Shown here: positions 18,976 through 59,502 of the stretch, one piece after another
Layout of the letters: every line of letters starts with the position of its first letter
Numbering within the stretch: position 1 is the first letter of the stretch
DNA from: Moritella sp. 24
GTDB lineage: Bacteria > Pseudomonadota > Gammaproteobacteria > Enterobacterales > Moritellaceae
DNA length: 64,000 nucleotides
Assembly (NCBI RefSeq): GCF_018219155.1
Contig: NZ_CP056123.1
Span: 3,915,505 to 3,979,504 of the forward strand
Direction: 5' to 3'
Made by a program: the position numbers and the translations under genes
The notes under the pieces: model-generated
Seen by the model: the letters and a program-made list of their open reading frames with translations, nothing else
What the model was told of the DNA's origin: nothing
Database searches by the model: none

Positions 18976-19871
18976 CTACGACCTTAACATCCAATATAAA
19001 GTATCTTTAATAGAATATTTTTGGTATTCTCCAATTAAATTTATTAATTTATCATTCGAACCATACAAATCCAAGATCTCATTATCTCTTTTAAAATCCT
19101 CATTCACAGTTACTTTTATTTCATAACCAGAAAGTAAGTTTAATTCTTTTATTATTTGTTCAATTGATGTTGAAATACCTGAGCAAACATTTAAAGTCAA
19201 ATTGCTTTCGTTAATTGTAAGTAATCGAGTGTAAGCTTCAACTACATCTCTAACATCTGAAAAGTCTCGAGATACATCGAGATTACCTAAACAAACCTCT
19301 GTATTAAACTTTTTATATTCCGATATTATTTTTGGAATTAAAAAATCGTGGCTTTGGCCATTTCCTGTATAATTAAATGGCCTAACAACAATAATAGGAA
19401 GATGGCTATACAAGCCCAACGCTTTTTCCATTGCGAGTTTAGATATTGAATAATGATTCACAGGATTGACAATTGTAGTTTCAGTTATTGGTAATTTATT
19501 ACTGCGTCCATATATATTACCAGTACTAGCGACTATTATTTTCTTCAACGGTAATACTAGTTCATCAACCAAATCTATTAAATTTAACGTTGCAACTATA
19601 TTATTTTTATATATTGTTGCACAATCTCTAAACCCGACATAACTTACGGCTGCTAAATGTACAATATAATCGAACTTAATATTTGTTATTAAACACCTTA
19701 GTTCATCTTTCTCTAATAAATCAACTTCAAAATACTGCACATATTCCATCGTGTTAGTTGGTTTTTTTCGAACTAGGGCTATACATTCAAAGCCCTTTTC
19801 TAATGCATTTTTAATAAAATGCTGACCTGTAAACCCATTAGCACCTGTAACCAGTATTACCTCTTTATCCA

Positions 19872-19872
<1 letters not shown>
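18976..19872 (-). CDS. rmd: NAD(P)-dependent GDP-4-keto-6-deoxymannose reductase-like SDR (Rmd/Tld type)
   Basis: This 298-residue extended SDR starts with ILVTGANGFTGQHF and has HLAAVSYVG, STGNIYGRS and the catalytic YSISK, followed by the RPFNYTGNGQ segment. It overlaps gmd by one base. Such proteins reduce the Gmd product to GDP-D-rhamnose (Rmd) or GDP-6-deoxy-D-talose (Tld). They differ from the fucose-forming Fcl epimerase-reductase, whose longer sequence is not seen here. The choice between rhamnose and 6-deoxytalose cannot be made from the sequence alone. Confidence 0.78.
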
Positions 19873-20984
<1,112 letters not shown>

Positions 20985-22166
20985 CATTATTTTTTAGTAA
21001 AATATACACATTATAAAATAAAAAAGTAAATACCACATAATTATCCAATGCGCCACCAGAAAGCATAGAACCCATCAATATAGGAATAACTACTATAGTA
21101 TGTTTATATCTCCCACTGTTGTTCATAAAAACAATAAAAATAAACAAGGAAAAAACAAGCAAACATAATAAATACACTCCGCTATTAACCATCGTCTCTA
21201 ATATTATATTATGAGGATAAAAAGAAAACACATGATTATTATCACCTAACCCAAATAAAATATTCATTGGATTATTATCATCAAAGAACTTTAATGCATT
21301 ATTATAAAACATAATCCGACCTGCTTCACTATTATTACTTTGATCAAAGTAAACCAACCTCCAAAACAATTCAGCTATATCATCCCAGTAATAAAAACAG
21401 AAAATAAAAATAGATAAGAACATAAATCTAACGGAATTAATTATGAGTTTATTATGTCTTAAAGAAACCACCATGAATAGAGTAGTTACTATTAACACAA
21501 GCATCCCGCCCCTGGAGCCAGTGCTAAGCATCGATATTACATAAGAAAAATATGAAATGACAAGTAAAAGAACACTTCGATCTTCCGCTAACTTTGACAA
21601 AAACAATATTAAACCTAGAAGGAACATCACACCGAATATGCGGTATAAAATATTTGGTCCAAAGATAAAAATCAACCGTCCATCACCATTAAAAATACTT
21701 AGCGTGGCGATTGGCGAAAATAAAATAATTAAAATCCATGCCCAATTATATCCTGACTTGCTAATAATCCTTTCCAATATAGGGAATGCATTGAAATATA
21801 GAATAATAAAAAAAAGGAAATTTGTATAATATTCAGGTTTAAAAATACTAAATGTTATAACAGGAGCCAATAGTAATATCAAAAAACTTTGGAAAAACAA
21901 TTCATTACTTTTAAAAAACAAGCCTGTTAGTATTCTATACAAAACCATCATAAACCAAACGATATAAAATGCAGGCACACCGGTTAAATTATAATCTCCT
22001 ACAAATGTCAACGCGAGAAAAATGACAACATCAAAAAAGGTGACAATGTTTTTCAACATAAATCTATATAGTCAAAATAGCGTTTGTATGACAATTCCAA
22101 CCCTCCATTCACCATACTAAAAAATAAATTTACAACTTTCATTTATAATGCCTTAGCTAGGAAAAA

Positions 22167-23234
22167 TCATTTATAACTAAATTTTAAGGTGTATAACAGT
22201 ATAATTATGTTTTTAATTTCCTTATCGGTTAACAGAGGGCTAATAAGTAAACTAATTACTTGCTCATGTAATAGCCCAGATATAGGTAACAGCCTATTCT
22301 CCCCCCTAATAAGCTAATTGTCGATGAGGAGGTATGTGATAATGAAGTAATGTCTGAATGTCATTATCAGTAAGGTGTCGTTGTAACTTTTATCGACATT
22401 TTTTTAACAACAAAAAAATATCAAACACACCCTTCATCATTAACAACATATGGAAGTTTAATTAAAGAATTATGAATCTCGTCAAAATAGTGTTTTCCCA
22501 CATTTTGACGAGCCTTAGTTTCTCTATCTAAATACTTCAACTTAACACGTAACATTGCAGCTTGAATTTCATCAAGACAATTATTCACACCTTTATATTT
22601 ATTCTTATACTTTTCATGAGCACCACAATTACGTAGCCCATTAATGATACTTAATCACTTAGCATCGTCGGTTGTTAGCGCACAGCATCACCTAACGCAC
22701 CGATATTTTACCGGGATAAAAACTAAATGCCCCCACATCGCACAAGAGCCTGATTTTAACCATGATATCCTAAAACAAATAAATTATGTTCTTTTGAAAA
22801 AACCATGACTTCTTTCATTAGCAATGACTTTACCATATAAATACGCAGGTAAAATAACTTTTGTTTTATCTGTAATACTAGCCTGATACCTTTAGCCGTT
22901 AAGTTAAAGTTTTCTTCATCAGGTTCAACTAATACAGGCATTAAATTATTTTATGACATAGAAAGAATCGATATGATATAAGTATTAGATGGAACTATGA
23001 CCTCATCACCATCTTGTAATTCATCTAATTCTTTCCATGCTTTTAACGTTAACGCGTCTAAACCATTCGCCACACCAATACTGTATTTAGTTCCTAGTCT
23101 GAAAACACTTGTTCAAAGGCTTTCAATTCATTATCCATGATGTACCAACCAGTATTGATAACTCAAATACAGGTTTCTTTTAATTCTTCATGATATTGTT
23201 GATTAATTACTTGTAAATTTAAAAAAGGAATCAT
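22167..23234 (-). pseudogene. Decayed full-length DegT/FdtB aminotransferase gene
   Basis: This region has no long ORF but matches the intact aminotransferase at 23347-24462 from end to end in broken frames. It starts MIPFLNLQVINQQYHEELKE at 23234, and a premature stop follows the next few codons. Further matches are PVLVEPDEENFNLT (intact copy [14 protein letters not shown]), a degraded [17 protein letters not shown] segment, LTDNDIQTLLHYHIPPHRQ (intact [21 protein letters not shown] region) and a C-terminus around LLTDKEIKNIII. Several in-frame stops and frameshifts exclude function. It explains most of the apparently empty 22060-23346 gap; 22060-22166 holds nothing I recognise. Confidence 0.9.
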
Positions 23235-23245
23235 GTTTTAACACT

Positions 23246-23346: not shown

Positions 23347-24462
23347 TCAGCTAAAATCGTTAACAACGCTGATAACTACATCAACTTCATCTTGACTTAT
23401 AACTGGACTTATCGGAATGCTCAAGACTTGCTGATGTATTTCCTCTGAAATAGGAAACGATGCGTTTTTCCACTCTTGATAAGCATCTTGTTGATGAGGC
23501 GGAGTTGGATAATGAATTAATGATTGCACACTATTATCAGTTAGATAGCTTGCTAACTTGTCACGCTGGGTAGTTTTAATCACAAACAGATGCCAAACAT
23601 GAGCATTTATGTTCTCAACAAGCGGCAACTCAATTAACGGGTTATTAATACCCTTTAAATAAGCCTGAGCAACAGTTTGTCTCGCAATTATCTCTTTATC
23701 TAAATAGCGTAATTTAACACGTAACATTGCCGCTTGGATCTCATCCAAACGACTATTCATACCTTTATATAAATTTTTATACTTTTCGTGTGAGCCATAA
23801 TTTCGCAGTGCCGCAATAGTATTGGCTAATTCACTATCATTAGTCGTGACAGCTCCGCCATCACCAAGTGCACCTAAGTTTTTCCCCGGGTAGAAACTAA
23901 AACCAGCTGCATCACCTAGACTACCCACTTTTTTACTTTGACCTTTTTTATTCGTATATATAGCACCGTGCGCTTGAGCACAGTCTTCAATAACTTTTAA
24001 ATGATGCTTTTTAGCTATAGAATTTATCTCATCCATCGCCGTGACTTGTCCATAAAGGTGGACAGTTAAAATTGCTTTAGTTTTTTCTGTAATTGCAGCT
24101 TCAATTAATACAGGATCTAAATTGAAGGTTTTAATATCAGGTTCAACCAATACTGGTGTTAAACCATTCTCAGAAATAGCAAGAATTGAGGCAATATAAG
24201 TATTTGAAGGGACAATCACTTCATCACCTTTTGCAATTATCCCTAATTCCATATAAGCACGTAAGATAAGTACTAACGCATCTAAACCATTTGCAACACC
24301 TAAACAATATTCAGTTTCACAATACGTAGCAAATTCTTTTTCAAATTCAGCAACTTCTTTACCTAATACATACCAGCCTGAATCAATAACACGAGAGCAA
24401 GCTTCTTTAAGTTCAGTCTGATACTGCTGGTTTACTGCTTTTAAATCTAAGAATGGGATCAT
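23347..24462 (-). CDS. fdtB: dTDP-3-keto-6-deoxyhexose 3-aminotransferase (DegT/DnrJ/EryC1 family)
   Basis: This 371-residue PLP enzyme has [27 protein letters not shown] and the PLP lysine Lys194 in [16 protein letters not shown]. It probably transfers an amino group to C3 of the dTDP-3-keto-6-deoxyhexose made by RmlA, RmlB and the FdtA-like isomerase, giving dTDP-Fuc3N or dTDP-Qui3N. It overlaps the acyltransferase stop by 4 bases. A decayed paralogue lies directly downstream. FdtB and QdtB are not separable by eye. Confidence 0.9.
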
Positions 24463-25214
24463 TTTATTTTTATCTCTTCTATTTCACTAATCCAACGCTG
24501 TACATCAACCTCTGAGTACCCTCGATGGAAACGATTTCGCCAAGGATATGCTTTTATTTTAGGGTTGTTGTGTAACCGTAAAATTTTAGCATCACATATG
24601 ACTTTGGCCGGACTACCTGAGGCGACTTTACCAGCTAAAACGTTTCCTTTAACGATTGAGCCAGCAGCAATGACTGCATCTTTCCCTATATTCACACCTG
24701 GTAAAACAAGCACTTTAGCCGCTAAAACTGCAAAGTCTTCAACTGTAACTCCCAGTAGCTTATCACTTGGTGGTGTCGGATCATTGGTGAGTAGTACTTC
24801 CGGAAACATCCAAACATAATTACCAACTTGGGACTCTTTACCAATATGAACATCCGCATGCATTTTTGTATAATGTCCAATCGAGCAATCTCCTTGGATA
24901 TCACCTCTTGAACCTAGCTGACAATAATTACCAATAGCACTATTCTCTCGGATCGTAACGTAATGACCCGTTTGGAAGTTCTTCCCAATTGTCGAACCAA
25001 TATAGATTGTTGAGTGGCTACGTATTATCGAATTTTCACCAATAATTAAAGTATTTGTGATTGCTAATCTTGTCGCTATGCCGATCTCACAATATGAACC
25101 TATTTGAGTACCTTTTTTGATTATCACATTCTCATGTATGACACAAAATGGGCCAATAGTTACGTTTTCTTGAATTTCGGCTTTGTCAGATACAATTGCA
25201 CTTGGATGGATCAT
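24459..25214 (-). CDS. fdtC: Hexapeptide-repeat sugar N-acyltransferase (FdtC/QdtC-like)
   Basis: This 251-residue left-handed beta-helix protein carries many imperfect hexapeptides from residue 2 ([20 protein letters not shown]) to about 200 ([10 protein letters not shown]). A C-terminal extension of about 45 residues follows. Relatives acylate the 3-amino group of dTDP-Fuc3N or dTDP-Qui3N, usually with acetyl-CoA. Here an ACP, an acyl ligase and a reductase are encoded upstream in the same operon, so the acyl donor may be an ACP- or CoA-bound hydroxyacid instead. That substrate is inferred. Confidence 0.8.
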
Positions 25215-25216
25215 AA

Positions 25217-25942
25217 TTAAGCAGTACTCCCTGCATCAACAGTAATTGTAGAGCCAGTCATTGAACTAGCACCTTCTGACAACAAAAATATAGTCGCTTG
25301 TGCTGCATCATTAACATGTGCAAGACGCCCTAGGGGACTTCTGCGGGTGATTGAAGCTAATTTATCACCTTGTAAGCCTTGGGTCATATTAGTTGCCATA
25401 TAGCCAGGAGCCAAAGTATTAACGGTTATATTCGCTCGACCTAGTTCACGCGCCAAAGATTTGGTAAATCCGCCTAATGCAGATTTAGTTGCGCCATAAA
25501 CACTTAAACCATTAAAGCCTGTTGAACCAATAATTGAGCCCACATTAACAATCCGCCCCTCTCGATTTAAAAGCATTGATCTTGAAACATATTTAGCTAA
25601 TAAGATAGGAGCTTCGACATTGACTTTAATTAGCTCAGAGATACTTTTCTCGTGCATCGTAGCTAAAACGCCATCATGTCCCAATGCTGCATTATTAATT
25701 AATGCGTAAGGTCGACCATATGTTTTAACAATATCTTTAACCAAGGCTGAAATACCTTCAGTATTGGAAAAATCAAATGAATGAAAAAATACAGAACTAG
25801 GATTACTTGACATCAAGTGAAGGTAATCTTCAGAGTTCGTCCGACTCACACCAACAACGAGGTACCCAGCGTTCACTAATTGTGAGCTAATTGCAAACCC
25901 TAAACCTTTTGTAGCACCAGAAACTATTACAATTTTACTCAT
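25217..25942 (-). CDS. FabG-like short-chain dehydrogenase/reductase
   Basis: This 241-residue classical SDR has the cofactor motif GATKGLGFAIS, NNAALGHDG, the catalytic serine in NVGSIIGSTG and YGATK. It resembles FabG 3-oxoacyl-ACP reductases. It starts directly at the stop of the acyl ligase gene (TAAATG) and ends 2 bases before the acyltransferase, so it is tightly coupled to both. I infer that it reduces an ACP-bound ketoacyl group (or forms it) for transfer to the amino sugar. A sugar-nucleotide substrate is possible but less likely for this subfamily. Confidence 0.85.
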   Translation of the reverse strand: MSKIVIVSGATKGLGFAISSQLVNAGYLVVGVSRTNSEDYLHLMSSNPSSVFFHSFDFSNTEGISALVKDIVKTYGRPYALINNAALGHDGVLATMHEKSISELIKVNVEAPILLAKYVSRSMLLNREGRIVNVGSIIGSTGFNGLSVYGATKSALGGFTKSLARELGRANITVNTLAPGYMATNMTQGLQGDKLASITRRSPLGRLAHVNDAAQATIFLLSEGASSMTGSTITVDAGSTA

Positions 25943-27289
25943 TTATTTTCTCACTATTTTTCCAGATTCATTGACAGCAATGTTATCAACAAACTTAATC
26001 ATGGCGGGTACTTTGAAAGAGACTAACTCGCTCTTACAAAACATAATTAGCTCTTTTTTAAATACCTTTTCTTCATCTTTTGCTAATGTTTTTTCACTCA
26101 CAATTTCAGCATTAACCAACATTCCAAGAACTGGGTTTTTTTTACCAAAAACTTTCGATTGAACAACATCTGGGTGGCTATTCAACACAGATTCTATTTC
26201 TTCGGGGATTACTTTATTACCACCGACATTAATAGTGCCACTATCACGACCAACAAAGAAAACACGATCATTTATGACTTCAACAATATCACCAGTATTT
26301 ATAAATCCATCGATATCGACATCTAAAGAACCATTAAGTAAGGTATCAGCTCCGCGGTTGCTTTTAATCCATAACAGATCATCAACTATCTTTAATTCAA
26401 TCGATGACAATTTAGAAATACCTATATAATCATATGGAAAACCAGCTTTATAGTCTTTTACAGTAAAGCCAACTCCCGCCTCTGTCGAGGCATATATATG
26501 AATAACGTTTGCATCAACAAAGTGTCTTTTTAATGAATTCAATACCGTTTGGTCTGCAATCTCACCACCTAACGTAATTCTTTTAAGCGGCAGAGAATTT
26601 GAATTTTTAGTCATCAACACTTTACGCCAAAAAGAAGGCGTGGCTGATAAACAATTAACCCCTTTATCTGTAAAATCCGCTACAATTAAATTTAAATCTT
26701 CCTCACTCTCAGAAATAGTTAAAGATGATCCAGAAGCAATTGCTTGAAGATAAACTTGCATTCCAGCAAAACGATTTAGGTCGTAGCATAACCCCCAGTT
26801 AAAATTAGCTCCTTTAACTACATCTTTTTTAGTGGTTTTCATTAAAGAAGCAATATAGTAACTCACCAATTTTGGCGTTCCAGTTGTACCAGAGGTTGAT
26901 AACAACCATTCCTGCTCAGACTTATTCAAGATAACAACATCTGAAACCTTAACGATCTCTATATCGGCATGTGATATTTTAACCACATACTCAATATCAG
27001 CCTTTGAATAAAATTCTTCAATAACGTCTTCTTTTAAACATTGAGGCTGAAGGAATATTTTATGCGCTACAGAAGCAACAAGAGGAAGTGATTTAGCTAA
27101 ATCAAATCTTGAATTTGACACTAAAGCACAGTTTTTCCCAATCAACTCTGGATTCTGATCTTTAAATTTCGCTATTGAACTTTGAATTTCTCCATAAGTA
27201 ATAACTTGATGTCGATTCTGTATATAAACTCGATCACTCGGAATGACATTAAAAGTATCAGTAAATAAATTAATCATTAAATCGCTCAT
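25943..27289 (-). CDS. Acyl-adenylating enzyme (acyl-CoA/ACP ligase)
   Basis: This 448-residue ANL-superfamily enzyme has the phosphate loop LSTSGTTGTPKLVSYY, YASTEAGVGF, NTGDIVEV, GRDSGTINVGGNKVIPEEIE and the terminal catalytic lysine region NESGKIVRK. It activates a carboxylic acid as acyl-AMP and would load it on the ACP encoded just upstream. I start it at the ATG at 27289, inside the ACP stop region; the ATG at 27334 would overlap the ACP by 65 bases and adds an unconserved leader. It resembles in concept the V. cholerae O1 RfbK-RfbL pair for tetronate activation. Confidence 0.88.
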   Translation of the reverse strand: MSDLMINLFTDTFNVIPSDRVYIQNRHQVITYGEIQSSIAKFKDQNPELIGKNCALVSNSRFDLAKSLPLVASVAHKIFLQPQCLKEDVIEEFYSKADIEYVVKISHADIEIVKVSDVVILNKSEQEWLLSTSGTTGTPKLVSYYIASLMKTTKKDVVKGANFNWGLCYDLNRFAGMQVYLQAIASGSSLTISESEEDLNLIVADFTDKGVNCLSATPSFWRKVLMTKNSNSLPLKRITLGGEIADQTVLNSLKRHFVDANVIHIYASTEAGVGFTVKDYKAGFPYDYIGISKLSSIELKIVDDLLWIKSNRGADTLLNGSLDVDIDGFINTGDIVEVINDRVFFVGRDSGTINVGGNKVIPEEIESVLNSHPDVVQSKVFGKKNPVLGMLVNAEIVSEKTLAKDEEKVFKKELIMFCKSELVSFKVPAMIKFVDNIAVNESGKIVRK

Positions 27290-27515
27290 AGATATTAACA
27301 AACTCACCAAACGTACTAGGATATACAGGTTCATCCATTAATTGAAAAGGGTCTAAATCCAATTCTTCTTCTAGAAATGCCACTAGAATAGCAAAACCTA
27401 AAGAGTCTAATCCAGTTTCGAGCAAGATCGCATTATCATCAATATTTTCATATTGTTCTGTTTTACCCGTTTGCTCTAATGCTTCGTTAAATTTTTCTAA
27501 AATTAGTTTTCTCAT
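27270..27515 (-). CDS. Acyl carrier protein
   Basis: This 81-residue acidic, helical protein has the phosphopantetheine attachment site LETGLDSLGFAIL with Ser38. It is a dedicated carrier, not the housekeeping AcpP, which is near fabF and has a different sequence. The start codon overlaps the FdtA-like stop by one base and the end overlaps the ligase start, so production is probably coupled. It probably carries the acyl group activated by the ligase at 25943-27289. Confidence 0.9.
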   Translation of the reverse strand: MRKLILEKFNEALEQTGKTEQYENIDDNAILLETGLDSLGFAILVAFLEEELDLDPFQLMDEPVYPSTFGEFVNIYERFND

Positions 27516-27916
27516 TATTTTTCACTTACCATTTTTGTAAATTCGTTATAATCACGGATGTAATCTGATTCATCATAAAAAGAATCTGCTAAAACCATTA
27601 ATACGCAATCATCTGAAAAATCATACATTTCACGCCACATAAATGACTCAATATATAAACCTTGTTCCGGATTATCTAATAACAGTTCAATTTTTTCTTT
27701 ACCATCATCTAATAAAAATCTACAAGAGCCTTTTAATACGATAGCCAATTGCTTTAATTCTTTATGTGCATGAAATCCACGACGTACATTCTCTTTAGTA
27801 TCAAACATATAGTAAACACGTTGAATCGTAAACGGAATGTTTTTATGATCCTCCAGTGAAACTAGGGAGCCCCTGTCATCACCATGGCTTTGAAACTGTA
27901 TGAATTTAATATCCAT
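27515..27916 (-). CDS. fdtA: dTDP-4-keto-6-deoxyglucose 3,4-ketoisomerase (FdtA/QdtA cupin)
   Basis: This 133-residue cupin of the WxcM-like family has DDRGSLVSLED, RVYYMF and the conserved RRGFHAHK with His49 and His51, then LKGSCRFLLDDG. These enzymes move the keto group of dTDP-4-keto-6-deoxy-D-glucose from C4 to C3, setting up amination. It sits 2 bases after rmlA, which fits the RmlA-RmlB-FdtA order of reactions. Whether the product is the galacto (Fuc3N) or gluco (Qui3N) epimer cannot be told by eye. Confidence 0.9.
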   Translation of the reverse strand: MDIKFIQFQSHGDDRGSLVSLEDHKNIPFTIQRVYYMFDTKENVRRGFHAHKELKQLAIVLKGSCRFLLDDGKEKIELLLDNPEQGLYIESFMWREMYDFSDDCVLMVLADSFYDESDYIRDYNEFTKMVSEK

Positions 27917-27918
27917 TA

Positions 27919-28791
27919 CTACCTTGCCCCCTTAATCAAATCTAATAGGTATTCACCATAAGTATTCTTCATTAGTGGTTTAGCTATTTCTTCAATTTGA
28001 CATGCAGTTAACCAGCCTTGATTAAACGCAATTTCTTCCAAACAAGCAATTTTAAAACCTTGACGGTGTTCAATTGTCTGCACGTATTGTCCTGCATCCA
28101 TCAAACTGTCATAAGTACCAGTATCCAGCCAAGCAAAACCACGCCCTAACAATTCAACGTTTAATTTACCACGTTTTAAATACTCATTGTTCACGCAGGT
28201 AATTTCCAGCTCTCCACGAGCAGAAGGCTTAATATTTTTAGCTATTTCAACAACATCATTATCGTAGAAATACAATCCTGTCACAGCAAAATTAGATTTT
28301 GGCTGTTCTGGTTTTTCTTCTATCGAAATCGCTTTATAGTTATCATCAAACTCAACAACGCCAAAACGCTCAGGGTCTTTAACCTTATAACCAAATACAG
28401 TAGCTCCGCTATCCCGACCAGCTGCGCTTAACAATTTTGGTGTAAAACCTTGACCAAAATAAATGTTATCACCTAGAACCAAGCACACATTATCATCGTC
28501 AATAAACTCTTCGCCGATAATAAAAGCCTGCGCTAATCCGTCTGGACTTGGCTGTATTTTGTAAGTTAATTGAATACCAAATTGACTACCATCACCTAAC
28601 AAGCGGATAAAACCAGCTTGATCTTCCGGTGTAGTGATAATCAATATTTCTCTAATGCCTGCTAACATCAATACAGATAGCGGATAGAAAATCATTGGTT
28701 TATCATAAATCGGTAATAGTTGTTTAGATATACCCTTGGTTATCGGATATAAGCGTGTTCCAGAACCCCCCGCTAAAATAATACCTTTCAT
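27919..28791 (-). CDS. rmlA: Glucose-1-phosphate thymidylyltransferase
   Basis: RmlA makes dTDP-glucose. The 290-residue protein starts [18 protein letters not shown] with [25 protein letters not shown] and [15 protein letters not shown], all invariant in the family. It is 1 base downstream of rmlB. No rmlC or rmlD is present, which fits an amino-sugar rather than a dTDP-rhamnose pathway. Confidence 0.97.
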
Positions 28792-28792
28792 C

Positions 28793-29863
28793 TTATACCT
28801 TATTTTCCGAGCCTAAACGTTCACAAGAATATGAACCGTCTAATACACGACTCCACCAATCACTATTGCTCAAGTACCATTCAACTGTTTTACGAATACC
28901 GCTTTCAAATGTTTCTTGTGGTTTCCAGTTTAACTCTAGCTCAATCTTACTTGCATCAATCGCATAACGTACATCATGACCCGGTCGGTCTAATACATAG
29001 GTAATTAAATCTTGGTATTGAGCGACACTTTCAGGCTTATTCGGTACTAACTCTTCGAGTAATGAACAAATTGTTTTTACAACATCAATATTGGCTTTTT
29101 CATTATGCCCACCAATATTGTAGGTCTCACCAACAATGCCCTCAGTAACCACTTTATATAATGCTCGAGCATGGTCTTCTACAAACAACCAATCACGAAT
29201 CTGCATACCGTTACCATAAACAGGTAAGGGTTTTCCTTCGACGGCATTTAAAATCACTAATGGAATAAGCTTTTCTGGAAAATGATAAGGCCCATAATTA
29301 TTAGAGCAATTAGTGATTAACGTTGGCAAACCATAAGTACGCTGCCACGCTCGAACTAAATGGTCACTAGATGCTTTAGATGCAGAATAAGGGCTGCTTG
29401 GAGAGTATGATGTTGTTTCAGTAAACAGATCATCAGTTCCTTCAAGATCACCATACACTTCATCCGTAGAAATATGATGAAAACGAAATGTAGTCTTCTT
29501 ATCTACATCGAGTTCATTCCAATAAGCACGTGTAGCTTCAAGTAACGTATATGTACCGACAATATTTGTTTCTATAAATGCCGCGGGACCATCAATTGAA
29601 CGGTCAACATGTGACTCAGCTGCTAAATGCATGACTGCATCAGGCTGATATTGTTTGTATACACGATCTAATTCAGAGCGATTACAAATATCAACCTCTT
29701 CAAAAAAATAACGAGAGTTATCATCCACATCTTTTAATGATTCTAAATTCCCCGCATATGTTAACTTATCAAGATTAACAACCGAATCAGATGTTTTATT
29801 TAAAATATGTCGAACAACAGCAGAACCAATAAAGCCAGCACCACCTGTGATTAAAACTTTCAT
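28793..29863 (-). CDS. rmlB: dTDP-glucose 4,6-dehydratase
   Basis: RmlB converts dTDP-glucose to dTDP-4-keto-6-deoxy-D-glucose. The 356-residue extended SDR has [30 protein letters not shown], the STDEVYGDL motif with the catalytic Asp/Glu pair, [12 protein letters not shown] and [18 protein letters not shown]. It lies just downstream of the Wzx gene and upstream of rmlA, feeding the FdtA/FdtB branch. Confidence 0.97.
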
Positions 29864-56430: not shown

Positions 56431-57657
56431 TTAACCTAAGAATAAACCCGCTAATGTTGCGCTCATTAAGTTAGCTAACGACGCAGCAAGTACTGCTTTT
56501 AGACCCATGCTTGCAATGTCAGCACGACGTGAAGGAGCAAGACTACCTAAACCACCAAGCAAGATCGCAATTGATGAGAAGTTAGCGAAACCACACAATG
56601 CAAATGAGATGATGATTTGTGTATGCTCAGATAATTCGTTATTTTTAATGTAATTAACGAAATCGAGGAAAGCAACAAACTCATTCACTACTAGTTTTTG
56701 ACCAATGAAACTACCCGCTGCAATCGCTTCATTCCACGGCACACCAATTACAAATGCAAGTGGCGAGAAGATCCAACCTAAGATCATTTGGATTGTTAGC
56801 TCAGGCATATCGAACCAAGCACCGATACCACCCGTGATACCATTTGCTAATGCAATTAGACCTACGAATGCAATTAACATTGCCCCGACGTTAAGCGCAA
56901 GCATCATACCTGAAGATGCACCTGACGCTGCAGCATCTAGCACGTTTGCAGGTTTGTCATCATTGTTCTCTTCAAGATCATCTAGTGATAATTTTGGCGT
57001 TTCTGTTTCTGGTTTAATAATCTTCGCCATTAATAGACCACCCGGTGCAGCCATAAATGACGCAGCAACCAAATATTCAATCTTAATACCAAGACCAGCA
57101 TAACCCGCTAATACTGAACCAGCGATAGAAGCAAGACCACCTACCATGACGGCAAATAGTTCTGATTTAGTCATTGATTTAATAAACGGACGCACAACAA
57201 GTGGTGCTTCAGTTTGACCAACAAAAATATTTGCTGTGGCAGAAAGTGATTCCGCACGGCTTGTGCCTAATAGTTTCTGTAAACCACCACCGATAAAGTT
57301 AATAACGATGCTCATTACACCTAAATAATAAAGAACGGCAATCAGTGAAGAGAAGAAAACAATAACTGGCAATACGTTAATCGCAAAAATGAAACCAACT
57401 TTGAATCTCGCCAAGTCACCAAATAAGAACTGAATACCTTCATTACCATAAGCAATGACGTTTGCGACACCAGTAGAGAGGCTCTGTAGTAACTCTTTAC
57501 CCGGAGGGAAATATAAAATGAACGCGCCAATAATGACCTGAATAGCGAATGCGCCACCCACGGTGCGTAAGTTAATTGCTTTTCTGTTATCCGATAATAG
57601 CAGCGCTAAACCGAGTAGCGCGAAAACGCCTACAATACCCATTACAAAATTCATCAA
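56431..57657 (-). CDS. nupC: NupC-family nucleoside:cation symporter (copy 1)
   Basis: This 408-residue CNT-family permease has about ten membrane segments and the family motifs [32 protein letters not shown] and NEFVAFLDF. It imports nucleosides at the inner membrane for the deo pathway. It differs from copy 2 (58279-59502) at only about twenty scattered positions. Its upstream region is a copy of the deoC leader, so it may be co-regulated with deo. It has its own terminator. Confidence 0.95.
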
Positions 57658-58278: not shown

Positions 58279-59502
58279 TTAGCCTAAGAATAAGCCCGCT
58301 AATGCAGCACTCATTAAGTTAGCTAAAGAAGCAGCAAGAACCGCTTTTAGACCCATGCTAGCAATATCTGCACGACGTGTTGGTGCTAAGCTACCTAAAC
58401 CACCAAGCAAGATTGCAATTGATGAGAAGTTAGCAAAACCACATAATGCAAATGAGATGATGATTTGTGTATGCTCAGATAACTCGTTATTTTTAATGTA
58501 ATTAACGAAATCTAGGAAAGCAACAAACTCATTCACTACTAATTTCTGACCGATGAAACTACCAGCAGCAATCGCTTCGTGCCATGGCACACCAATGATG
58601 AATGCAAGTGGTGAGAAGATCCAACCTAAGATCATTTGGATTGTTAGTTCAGGCATATCGAACCAAGCACCAATACCACCCGTGATACCATTTGCTAATG
58701 CAATTAGACCAACGAATGCGATTAACATTGCACCAACGTTAAGTGCTAACATCATACCTGAAGATGCACCAGCGGCAGCAGCGTCTAATACGTTTGCAGG
58801 CTTTTCATCATCATTTTCTTCAAGATCATCAAGTGATACTTTTGGCGTGTCCGTTTCAGGCTTAATAATCTTAGCCATTAATAGACCACCCGGTGCCGCC
58901 ATGAATGACGCAGCAACTAAGTACTCAATCTTAATACCAAGACCAGCGTAACCCGCTAGTACTGAACCAGCGATAGAAGCAAGACCACCTACCATTACGG
59001 CAAATAATTCTGATTTAGTCATTGATTTAATAAACGGACGCACAACTAACGGTGCTTCAGTTTGACCAACAAAAATATTTGCTGTAGCAGAAAGTGATTC
59101 AGCACGGCTTGTGCCTAATAGCTTCTGTAAACCACCACCGATAAAGTTAATAACTACGCTCATTACACCTAAGTAATAAAGAACAGCGATCAGTGCTGAG
59201 AAGAAAACAATAACTGGTAATACGTTAATCGCAAAGATGAAACCAACTTTGAATTTTGCCAAGTCACCGAATAAGAATTGAATACCTTCATTACCGTAAG
59301 CAATTACGTTTGCTACACCAGTAGAGAGACCTTGTAGTAACTCTTTACCCGGAGGGAAGTATAAAATGAAAGCACCAACAGCAACCTGGATAGCAAATGC
59401 GCCACCAACAGTGCGTAAGTTAATTGCTTTTCTATTATCAGATAACAGAACAGCCAAACCAAGTAGGACAAAAATGCCCACAATACCCATTACAAAATTC
59501 AT
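58279..59502 (-). CDS. nupC: NupC-family nucleoside:cation symporter (copy 2)
   Basis: This 407-residue CNT permease is almost identical to copy 1, with the same [15 protein letters not shown] and GQTEAPLVV motifs. It precedes copy 1 in transcription order. Its upstream region (59503-59711) is unrelated to the deoC leader, so its promoter probably differs from that of copy 1. It ends with a terminator of the same design. Confidence 0.95.

Follow-up and report, generated by a model that had tools for sequence, protein, structure and literature searches.

In a 64,000-nucleotide stretch of the Moritella sp. 24 genome (NZ_CP056123.1, positions 3,915,505 to 3,979,504; hereafter the window), we observe an operon for a deoxythymidine diphosphate (dTDP)-linked 3-amino-3,6-dideoxyhexose that carries, between its isomerase and acyltransferase genes, an acyl carrier protein (ACP), a stand-alone ANL (acyl-adenylate) ligase and a FabG-like short-chain dehydrogenase/reductase (SDR), here called the trio. 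On balance, we lean toward the reading that the trio assembles, on its carrier protein, a 3-hydroxyacyl group (likely 3-hydroxybutyryl) for transfer to the 3-amino group of the sugar. Gene content, gene order, family membership, conservation and trees are direct observations. Six open reading frames (ORFs) form an unbroken run on the minus strand (23347-27916), behind rmlB and rmlA; five of the six genes have Pfam support, the ACP being the exception, and the junctions are tight, with base 27515 common to isomerase and ACP, ligase and SDR directly adjoining (taaatg), 2 bases between SDR and acyltransferase, and a 4-base overlap of acyltransferase and aminotransferase. These ORFs, together with the gene families and the conservation of the trio, largely bear out the first-pass annotation of this DNA, which had described six tightly packed genes and, within an operon for a dTDP-3-amino-3,6-dideoxyhexose, a set of genes dedicated to acyl activation.

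The ACP, ligase and SDR form a conserved unit. A search with the ligase at E 1e-60 returned this genome only among 11 genomes of the genus, seven matches (this one included) among 394 genomes of the order, and 34 matches among 295 genomes of one family, one of them in common with the order set, giving 40 distinct genomes; a search in nine genomes of another genus gave two matches, both already counted. A generic two-pattern contig scan contributed 80 loci among the matches listed, of which three are close (L009, L010 and L011), bringing the related ligase loci to 43, and the other 77 served as a control. An ACP adjoins the ligase in all 43 related loci and an SDR in 42, the exception (L136) ending at a contig edge. 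Among the 77 distant ANL ligase loci, an ACP stands beside the ligase in none and an SDR in four, with neighbors recognized by blastp similarity to the window ACP and SDR, so that strongly diverged carriers would escape this count. Protein distances of ACP, ligase and SDR correlate at 0.85 to 0.89 (n = 42 loci), a level reached in 0 of 999 permutations and partly reflecting common species history. Since the order of the trio is kept far outside this genome, the six-gene arrangement is more than chance.

With respect to context, 33 of the 43 trios lie in pseudaminic-acid (pse) loci, one in another nonulosonate locus and three in loci of the isomerase-aminotransferase type (the window, L126 and L133), while six show neither sugar type in the available stretch, short contigs among them. 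Of 21 trio genomes searched with a PseI model, 19 gave a match above its cut-off, and in 16 a match lay no more than 4 kb from the ligase. The set had been taken as peculiar to this locus, a view not supported, given how widespread the trio is. The genome search for the gene order that had been proposed finds the full window order (isomerase-ACP-ligase-SDR-acyltransferase-aminotransferase) in L126 and L133, and the trio alone in the further loci, mostly pse. This recurrence, mostly beside genes for another sugar, suggests that the trio is an exchangeable module. In the ligase plus SDR tree, L133 (one of six flagged long branches) is separate from the window and L126; because the trios of the three qdt-type loci do not form one clade, the trio was probably inserted at the qdt site more than once, or swapped in place.

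The family assignments of the trio proteins agree with the predicted roles. The ACP had been reported with Ser38, and this is confirmed: D37-S38-L39 is conserved in 43 of 43 trio loci, most of the family (31 of 39 proteins) matches PP-binding (PF00550), and the predicted model is helical (pLDDT 93.4), with carrier proteins ranking top in a Foldseek search (best E 0.029, none below 0.001). Both the DSL phosphopantetheine site and the helical bundle of the PF00550 class are thus present. The ligase retains Lys441 in 43 of 43 loci and resembles DltA in being a stand-alone ANL enzyme whose carrier is a separate protein; its residues are numbered from codon 27280, one codon ahead of the ATG at 27277, which (or else 27289) is a more likely start than that of the longest ORF at 27334. 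For the SDR, the top NCBIfam match is 3oxo_ACP_reduc (190 bits, under its cut-off), and N108, S136, Y149 and K153 are conserved in 42 of 42 sequences.

The genes found beside related acyltransferases point to the same type of acyl group. Searches in 394 genomes (E 1e-55, five matches), 369 genomes (E 1e-45, three, including this genome) and 295 genomes (three) gave ten distinct genomes with this acyltransferase, and additional family searches in 24, 5 and 12 genomes gave no new loci. Three of the ten carry the trio (the window, L126 and L133). Two (L153 and L183) have a 3-hydroxyacyl-CoA dehydrogenase gene between isomerase and acyltransferase (Pfam, 9.3e-44 and 1.3e-48), with 3-hydroxybutyryl-CoA dehydrogenase as top NCBIfam match (306 and 324 bits, under the cut-off of 408). 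In another three, a MaoC-type gene adjoins the acyltransferase, lying between it and the isomerase in L154 and past it in L155 and L182 (Pfam, 4.6e-24, 7.1e-22 and 1.4e-23; top NCBIfam match the enoyl-CoA hydratase domain, under cut-off), and all three MaoC genes have the GD.NP.H motif, which we take to be that of (R)-specific hydratases. Because the product of reductase, dehydrogenase and hydratase would in each case be a 3-hydroxyacyl thioester, these three alternative supply routes probably lead to a 3-hydroxyacyl group, and probably to 3-hydroxybutyryl; this is the chief argument for the acyl group. The hydroxyacyl amide proposed earlier thereby becomes probable, from this exchange of genes and from the trio-specific acyltransferase clade described below, with the acyl group itself named by inference. 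Separately, a single protein of one pse locus (L125, 6685-7599) joins a GNAT acetyltransferase to a MaoC domain, so that an acyltransferase and an enzyme of hydroxyacyl type are paired there as well.

The acyltransferase is a hexapeptide-repeat protein homologous to QdtC over residues 4-245 (PDB 3fs8). In the tree of the ten acyltransferases, the three trio-linked enzymes form one clade (support 100/100, branch 1.51) on the sole starred branch, while the trio loci do not group together in the trees of the isomerase and the aminotransferase. Compared with the window, L155 is 86% identical in the aminotransferase and 84% in the isomerase but only 49% in the acyltransferase, and blastn finds no match between these two flanks. 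Eleven acyltransferase positions (76, 92, 102, 103, 116, 120, 121, 139, 141, 169 and 228) are fixed differently in the trio-linked (3/3) and other (7/7) enzymes, QdtC having the non-trio residue at eight (92, 102, 103, 116, 120, 121, 141 and 169). A changed donor, ACP in place of coenzyme A (CoA), would account for these substitutions, which suggest such a switch.

As to the sugar, dTDP-linked 3-amino-3,6-dideoxyglucose (Qui3N) is a more likely product than 3-amino-3,6-dideoxygalactose (Fuc3N). The window isomerase reads WREM at the WxEM motif, whose variable position presumably steers product stereochemistry; the same Arg, the QdtA-type residue, is found in E. coli O91, which we take to be a Qui3N maker, and in O71, with WHEM in FdtA (2pa7) and E. 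coli O103. The latter makes Fuc3N, according to the available part of PMC4869667. Across the ten acyltransferase loci, nine isomerases have WREM and one (L181) WRVI. The top-scoring solved isomerase is FdtA rather than QdtA (164 versus 114 bits); the O91 isomerase likewise scores higher to FdtA, which makes this a weak argument. Qui3N is the better guess because of the WREM motif and the QdtC-like acyltransferase, and the FdtA/Fuc3N naming of the first-pass annotation, with Fuc3N as the default sugar, is weakened accordingly.

We infer the activities, the acyl identity, the order of the steps and the donor switch as follows. RmlA and RmlB would form dTDP-4-keto-6-deoxyglucose, the QdtA-type isomerase would shift the keto group to C3, and the aminotransferase would yield dTDP-Qui3N (less likely dTDP-Fuc3N). 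In parallel, and at the expense of ATP, the ANL ligase would charge the phosphopantetheine at Ser38 of the ACP with a small 3-oxo acid (acetoacetate in the simplest case), and the SDR would reduce the 3-oxoacyl-ACP to 3-hydroxyacyl-ACP. The QdtC-like acyltransferase would then use this thioester, instead of acetyl-CoA, as donor for the 3-amino group of the sugar. In the sister operons, the corresponding thioester would be one of CoA and would come from a 3-hydroxybutyryl-CoA dehydrogenase or a MaoC hydratase.

The closest precedent is the viosamine island of P. syringae (vioA, vioB, vioR, vioS and acp), which likewise has a dedicated ACP, a 3-oxoacyl-ACP reductase, an acyltransferase and a dTDP-sugar aminotransferase and gives a 3-hydroxybutyryl amide; in the part of the report available, loss of the reductase VioR abolishes 3-hydroxybutyryl-viosamine on flagellin (PMC3927599). 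This gene set is present in the window operon. The two differ in that the acyl group of the island is built by a 3-ketoacyl-ACP synthase III (KAS III; VioS), that no ligase is listed in that part of the report and that the sugar is a 4-amino sugar (PMC3927599), whereas the operon genes include no ketosynthase and a ligase is present instead. By analogy, the operon is a putative new form of the carrier-based hydroxybutyrylation of the viosamine island, with a ligase replacing the ketosynthase. The combination of ACP, reductase and AMP-dependent synthetase is itself already in print: group II of the Aeromonas polar-flagellin islands (orf1-3) lists an ACP, a 3-oxoacyl-ACP reductase and an AMP-dependent synthetase as fatty-acid synthesis proteins, the same three functions as the trio and also in a pse locus (compared by description), although in another listed order and with another sugar (PMC7874193, available sections). 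We set aside the sfm operon of Shewanella oneidensis, whose five genes include a 3-oxoacyl-ACP reductase, as no ACP or ANL ligase is named in the accessible text of PMC3765264.

A blastn search of 5,426 E. coli genomes with the isomerase-to-SDR stretch matched 169, none over 80% of the query, and the 20 matches listed cover the isomerase end only; with acyltransferase plus aminotransferase, 308 genomes matched, the 40 matches listed covering the aminotransferase only. In the open-licence literature, we found nothing joining Qui3N with an acyl carrier protein, nor anything joining 3-hydroxybutyryl, Fuc3N, acyl carrier protein and O-antigen. The QdtA-QdtB-QdtC and FdtA-FdtB-FdtC pathways share the isomerase, the aminotransferase and a homologous hexapeptide acyltransferase with the operon. 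They work with acetyl-CoA and do without a carrier, ligase or reductase, and the window acyltransferase departs from theirs at the clade-fixed positions. In V. cholerae O1, an ACP-ligase pair (RfbK/RfbL) reportedly feeds an N-acyl sugar, in that case tetronate on perosamine, a guanosine diphosphate (GDP)-sugar. E. coli O91, as we take its structure to be, has 3-hydroxybutyryl on Qui3N. The same acyl group is on Fuc3N in E. coli O103, where FdhC is named (PMC4869667, in the part available). In both strains a GNAT, taken as the transferase from gene position, stands in the transferase position. Neither GNAT matches the window acyltransferase significantly by blastp (best E 0.38), and we reject a transferase of this type (FdhC/QdhC) for the window.

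Of the alternatives, we regard as unlikely, though the best of them, that the module functions as proposed with another acid, such as 4-hydroxybutyryl, 3-hydroxy-3-methylbutyryl, malyl or an amino-acyl group. Ligases are of most use where fatty-acid synthesis does not provide the acid, and 4-hydroxybutyrate-CoA ligase is one of the 14 PDB matches. There are also structural parallels in the available part of PMC3210612, namely a 3-amino-3,6-dideoxygalactose with 4-hydroxybutyryl in Pseudoalteromonas and Qui4N (4-amino-4,6-dideoxyglucose) with 3-hydroxy-3-methylbutyryl or 3-hydroxybutyryl, depending on medium, in Shewanella MR-4. Against this, the 3-hydroxybutyryl-CoA-dehydrogenase-like and MaoC genes beside the sister acyltransferases indicate a hydroxyl at position 3. 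Activation of an amino acid is judged unlikely, since the ligase position R170, which aligns to the His of MenE FHxxG and presumably corresponds to the amino-binding Asp of nonribosomal peptide synthetase domains, is Arg in 42 of 43 loci and Lys in the other.

Somewhat less probable is plain N-acetylation with acetyl-CoA, the trio being a passenger or serving another sugar of the same polysaccharide. The acyltransferase is a homologue of QdtC, which we take to be acetyl-CoA dependent, two of the ten acyltransferase loci lack a supply gene, and the usual neighbors of the trio are pse genes, with two NeuB-like genes lying just left of the window on the same contig. Yet in all three qdt-type loci the trio is part of the operon, lying between the isomerase and acyltransferase genes, and these trios belong to lineages that do not form a single clade (approximately unbiased [AU] test, p 5.4e-5); the trio-linked acyltransferases have a clade of their own; and a different hydroxyacyl-forming gene stands beside the acyltransferase in five of the other seven relatives.

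It is improbable to a further degree that the acyltransferase moves acetoacetyl (3-oxoacyl) from the ACP and that reduction by the SDR follows once this group is on the dTDP-sugar. Such an order has a precedent, as dTDP-N-acetoacetylviosamine is a named intermediate of the viosamine island, placing reduction after transfer there (PMC3927599, available part), and for this reason our confidence in the main reading is slightly lowered. The sister-operon dehydrogenase-like and MaoC genes nevertheless belong to thioester-acting families, and the SDR has a 3-oxoacyl-ACP reductase as its top NCBIfam match. Keto-sugar reduction is common among SDR enzymes, but an SDR unconnected with the acyl group is very improbable given that match, the absence of an open keto-sugar step in the operon and the retention of the SDR, along with this ACP and ligase, next to the pse genes of a different sugar pathway.

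Besides the acetoacetyl intermediate, several observations weigh against a 3-hydroxyacyl group built on the carrier. The window ACP, taken alone, has no Pfam match. In the SDR alignment, the positions that we take to be the ACP-docking arginines of FabG are only partly kept, the first being Arg or Lys in 27 of 42 and the second Ala in 33 of 42; residue 169, a neighbor of the second, is Lys or Arg in 42 of 42. QdtC has the trio residue at acyltransferase position 76 and agrees with neither group at 139 and 228, so that not all eleven positions mark a departure from the acetyl type, and L181 and L184 are the two relatives with no supply gene beside the acyltransferase. The usual setting of the trio is a pse locus, hence the acyl group here may be a different one, and grouping the three qdt-locus trios as one clade is rejected by the AU test, so their substrates may differ. 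The E. coli O91 and O103 loci have no supply genes annotated beside their GNATs. To our knowledge, no enzyme activity or glycan structure has been reported for any trio locus.

We also put forward a broader proposal, tentatively and at somewhat less than even confidence. The site beside the acyltransferase in dTDP-3-amino-sugar operons would be an exchangeable acyl-supply slot for the trio (which pse loci have in common with them), a 3-hydroxybutyryl-CoA dehydrogenase or an (R)-enoyl-CoA hydratase; the trio-linked acyltransferase would have changed from CoA to a dedicated ACP donor; and the choice of gene would set the donor and even the R or S configuration. Hydroxy-acid decorations on bacterial surface sugars affect serology and phage and host recognition, and their acyl source is mostly unknown. 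The proposal, if true, would give a rule readable from genomes, in which the supply gene beside the acyltransferase predicts which acyl group is used, whether ACP or CoA carries it and perhaps which configuration it has. It would also connect a module common for flagellin sugars with O-antigen or capsule loci. In addition, the enzymes make up a short, soluble set suited to experiments in vitro.

Table 1. Genes of the dTDP-3-amino-3,6-dideoxyhexose operon and adjoining features, in window coordinates
Feature	Coordinates	Strand	Evidence
rmlB, dTDP-glucose 4,6-dehydratase	28793..29863	-	TIGR01181 524 bits, above cut-off
rmlA, glucose-1-phosphate thymidylyltransferase	27919..28791	-	TIGR01207 511.5 bits, above cut-off
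QdtA/FdtA-family dTDP-4-keto-6-deoxyglucose 3,4-ketoisomerase	27515..27916	-	R15 and WREM; PF05523 (FdtA) 1e-51; PDB FdtA 2pa7 164 bits
Acyl carrier protein, DSL with Ser38	27270..27515	-	PF00550 matches of relatives, conserved site, model fold
Stand-alone ANL (acyl-adenylate) ligase, predicted ACP loader	25943..27277	-	AMP-binding 5.2e-17 and AMP-binding_C
FabG-like SDR, predicted 3-oxoacyl-carrier reductase	25217..25942	-	PF13561 (adh_short_C2) 5.1e-49
QdtC-like hexapeptide acyltransferase, trio-linked clade	24459..25214	-	Hexapep 4.7e-27; PDB QdtC 3fs8 212.6 bits; tree; clade-specific residues
Pyridoxal phosphate-dependent sugar 3-aminotransferase, QdtB/FdtB family	23347..24462	-	PF01041 (DegT_DnrJ_EryC1) 5.1e-110; QdtB 3frk 425.5 bits; best 7n63 462.2 bits
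Decayed second aminotransferase copy	22203..23237	-	tblastn pieces, blastn similarity to 23347-24462, in-frame stops

Upstream of the six genes are rmlA, rmlB and a Wzx-like flippase gene (Pfam), and downstream lie the decayed aminotransferase copy, a Wzy-like polymerase gene (Wzy_C 1.1e-08) and a pair of GDP-mannose dehydratase-family genes. The decayed copy has 66-67% DNA identity to the intact gene (blastn), which is consistent with a past cassette exchange beside the operon, and a possible glycosyltransferase remnant is seen by eye between it and the Wzy-like gene (22040-22180). The GDP-mannose 4,6-dehydratase-family pair (18976-20912) probably comprises Gmd and an Rmd-like reductase, which suggests GDP-D-rhamnose in the same polymer.

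Elsewhere, an HpcH/HpaI aldolase-family gene (952-1770; Pfam 8.1e-07), uncommon in polysaccharide loci, is flanked by what appear by eye to be sugar-transferase and flippase genes. The two NeuB-like synthases to the left of the window (C1:3901097 and C1:3912323) are under the PseI cut-off, and a nonulosonate locus may adjoin this locus on that side. Finally, two adjoining membrane-protein genes (56431-57657 and 58279-59502) are near-identical by eye, an apparent tandem duplication.

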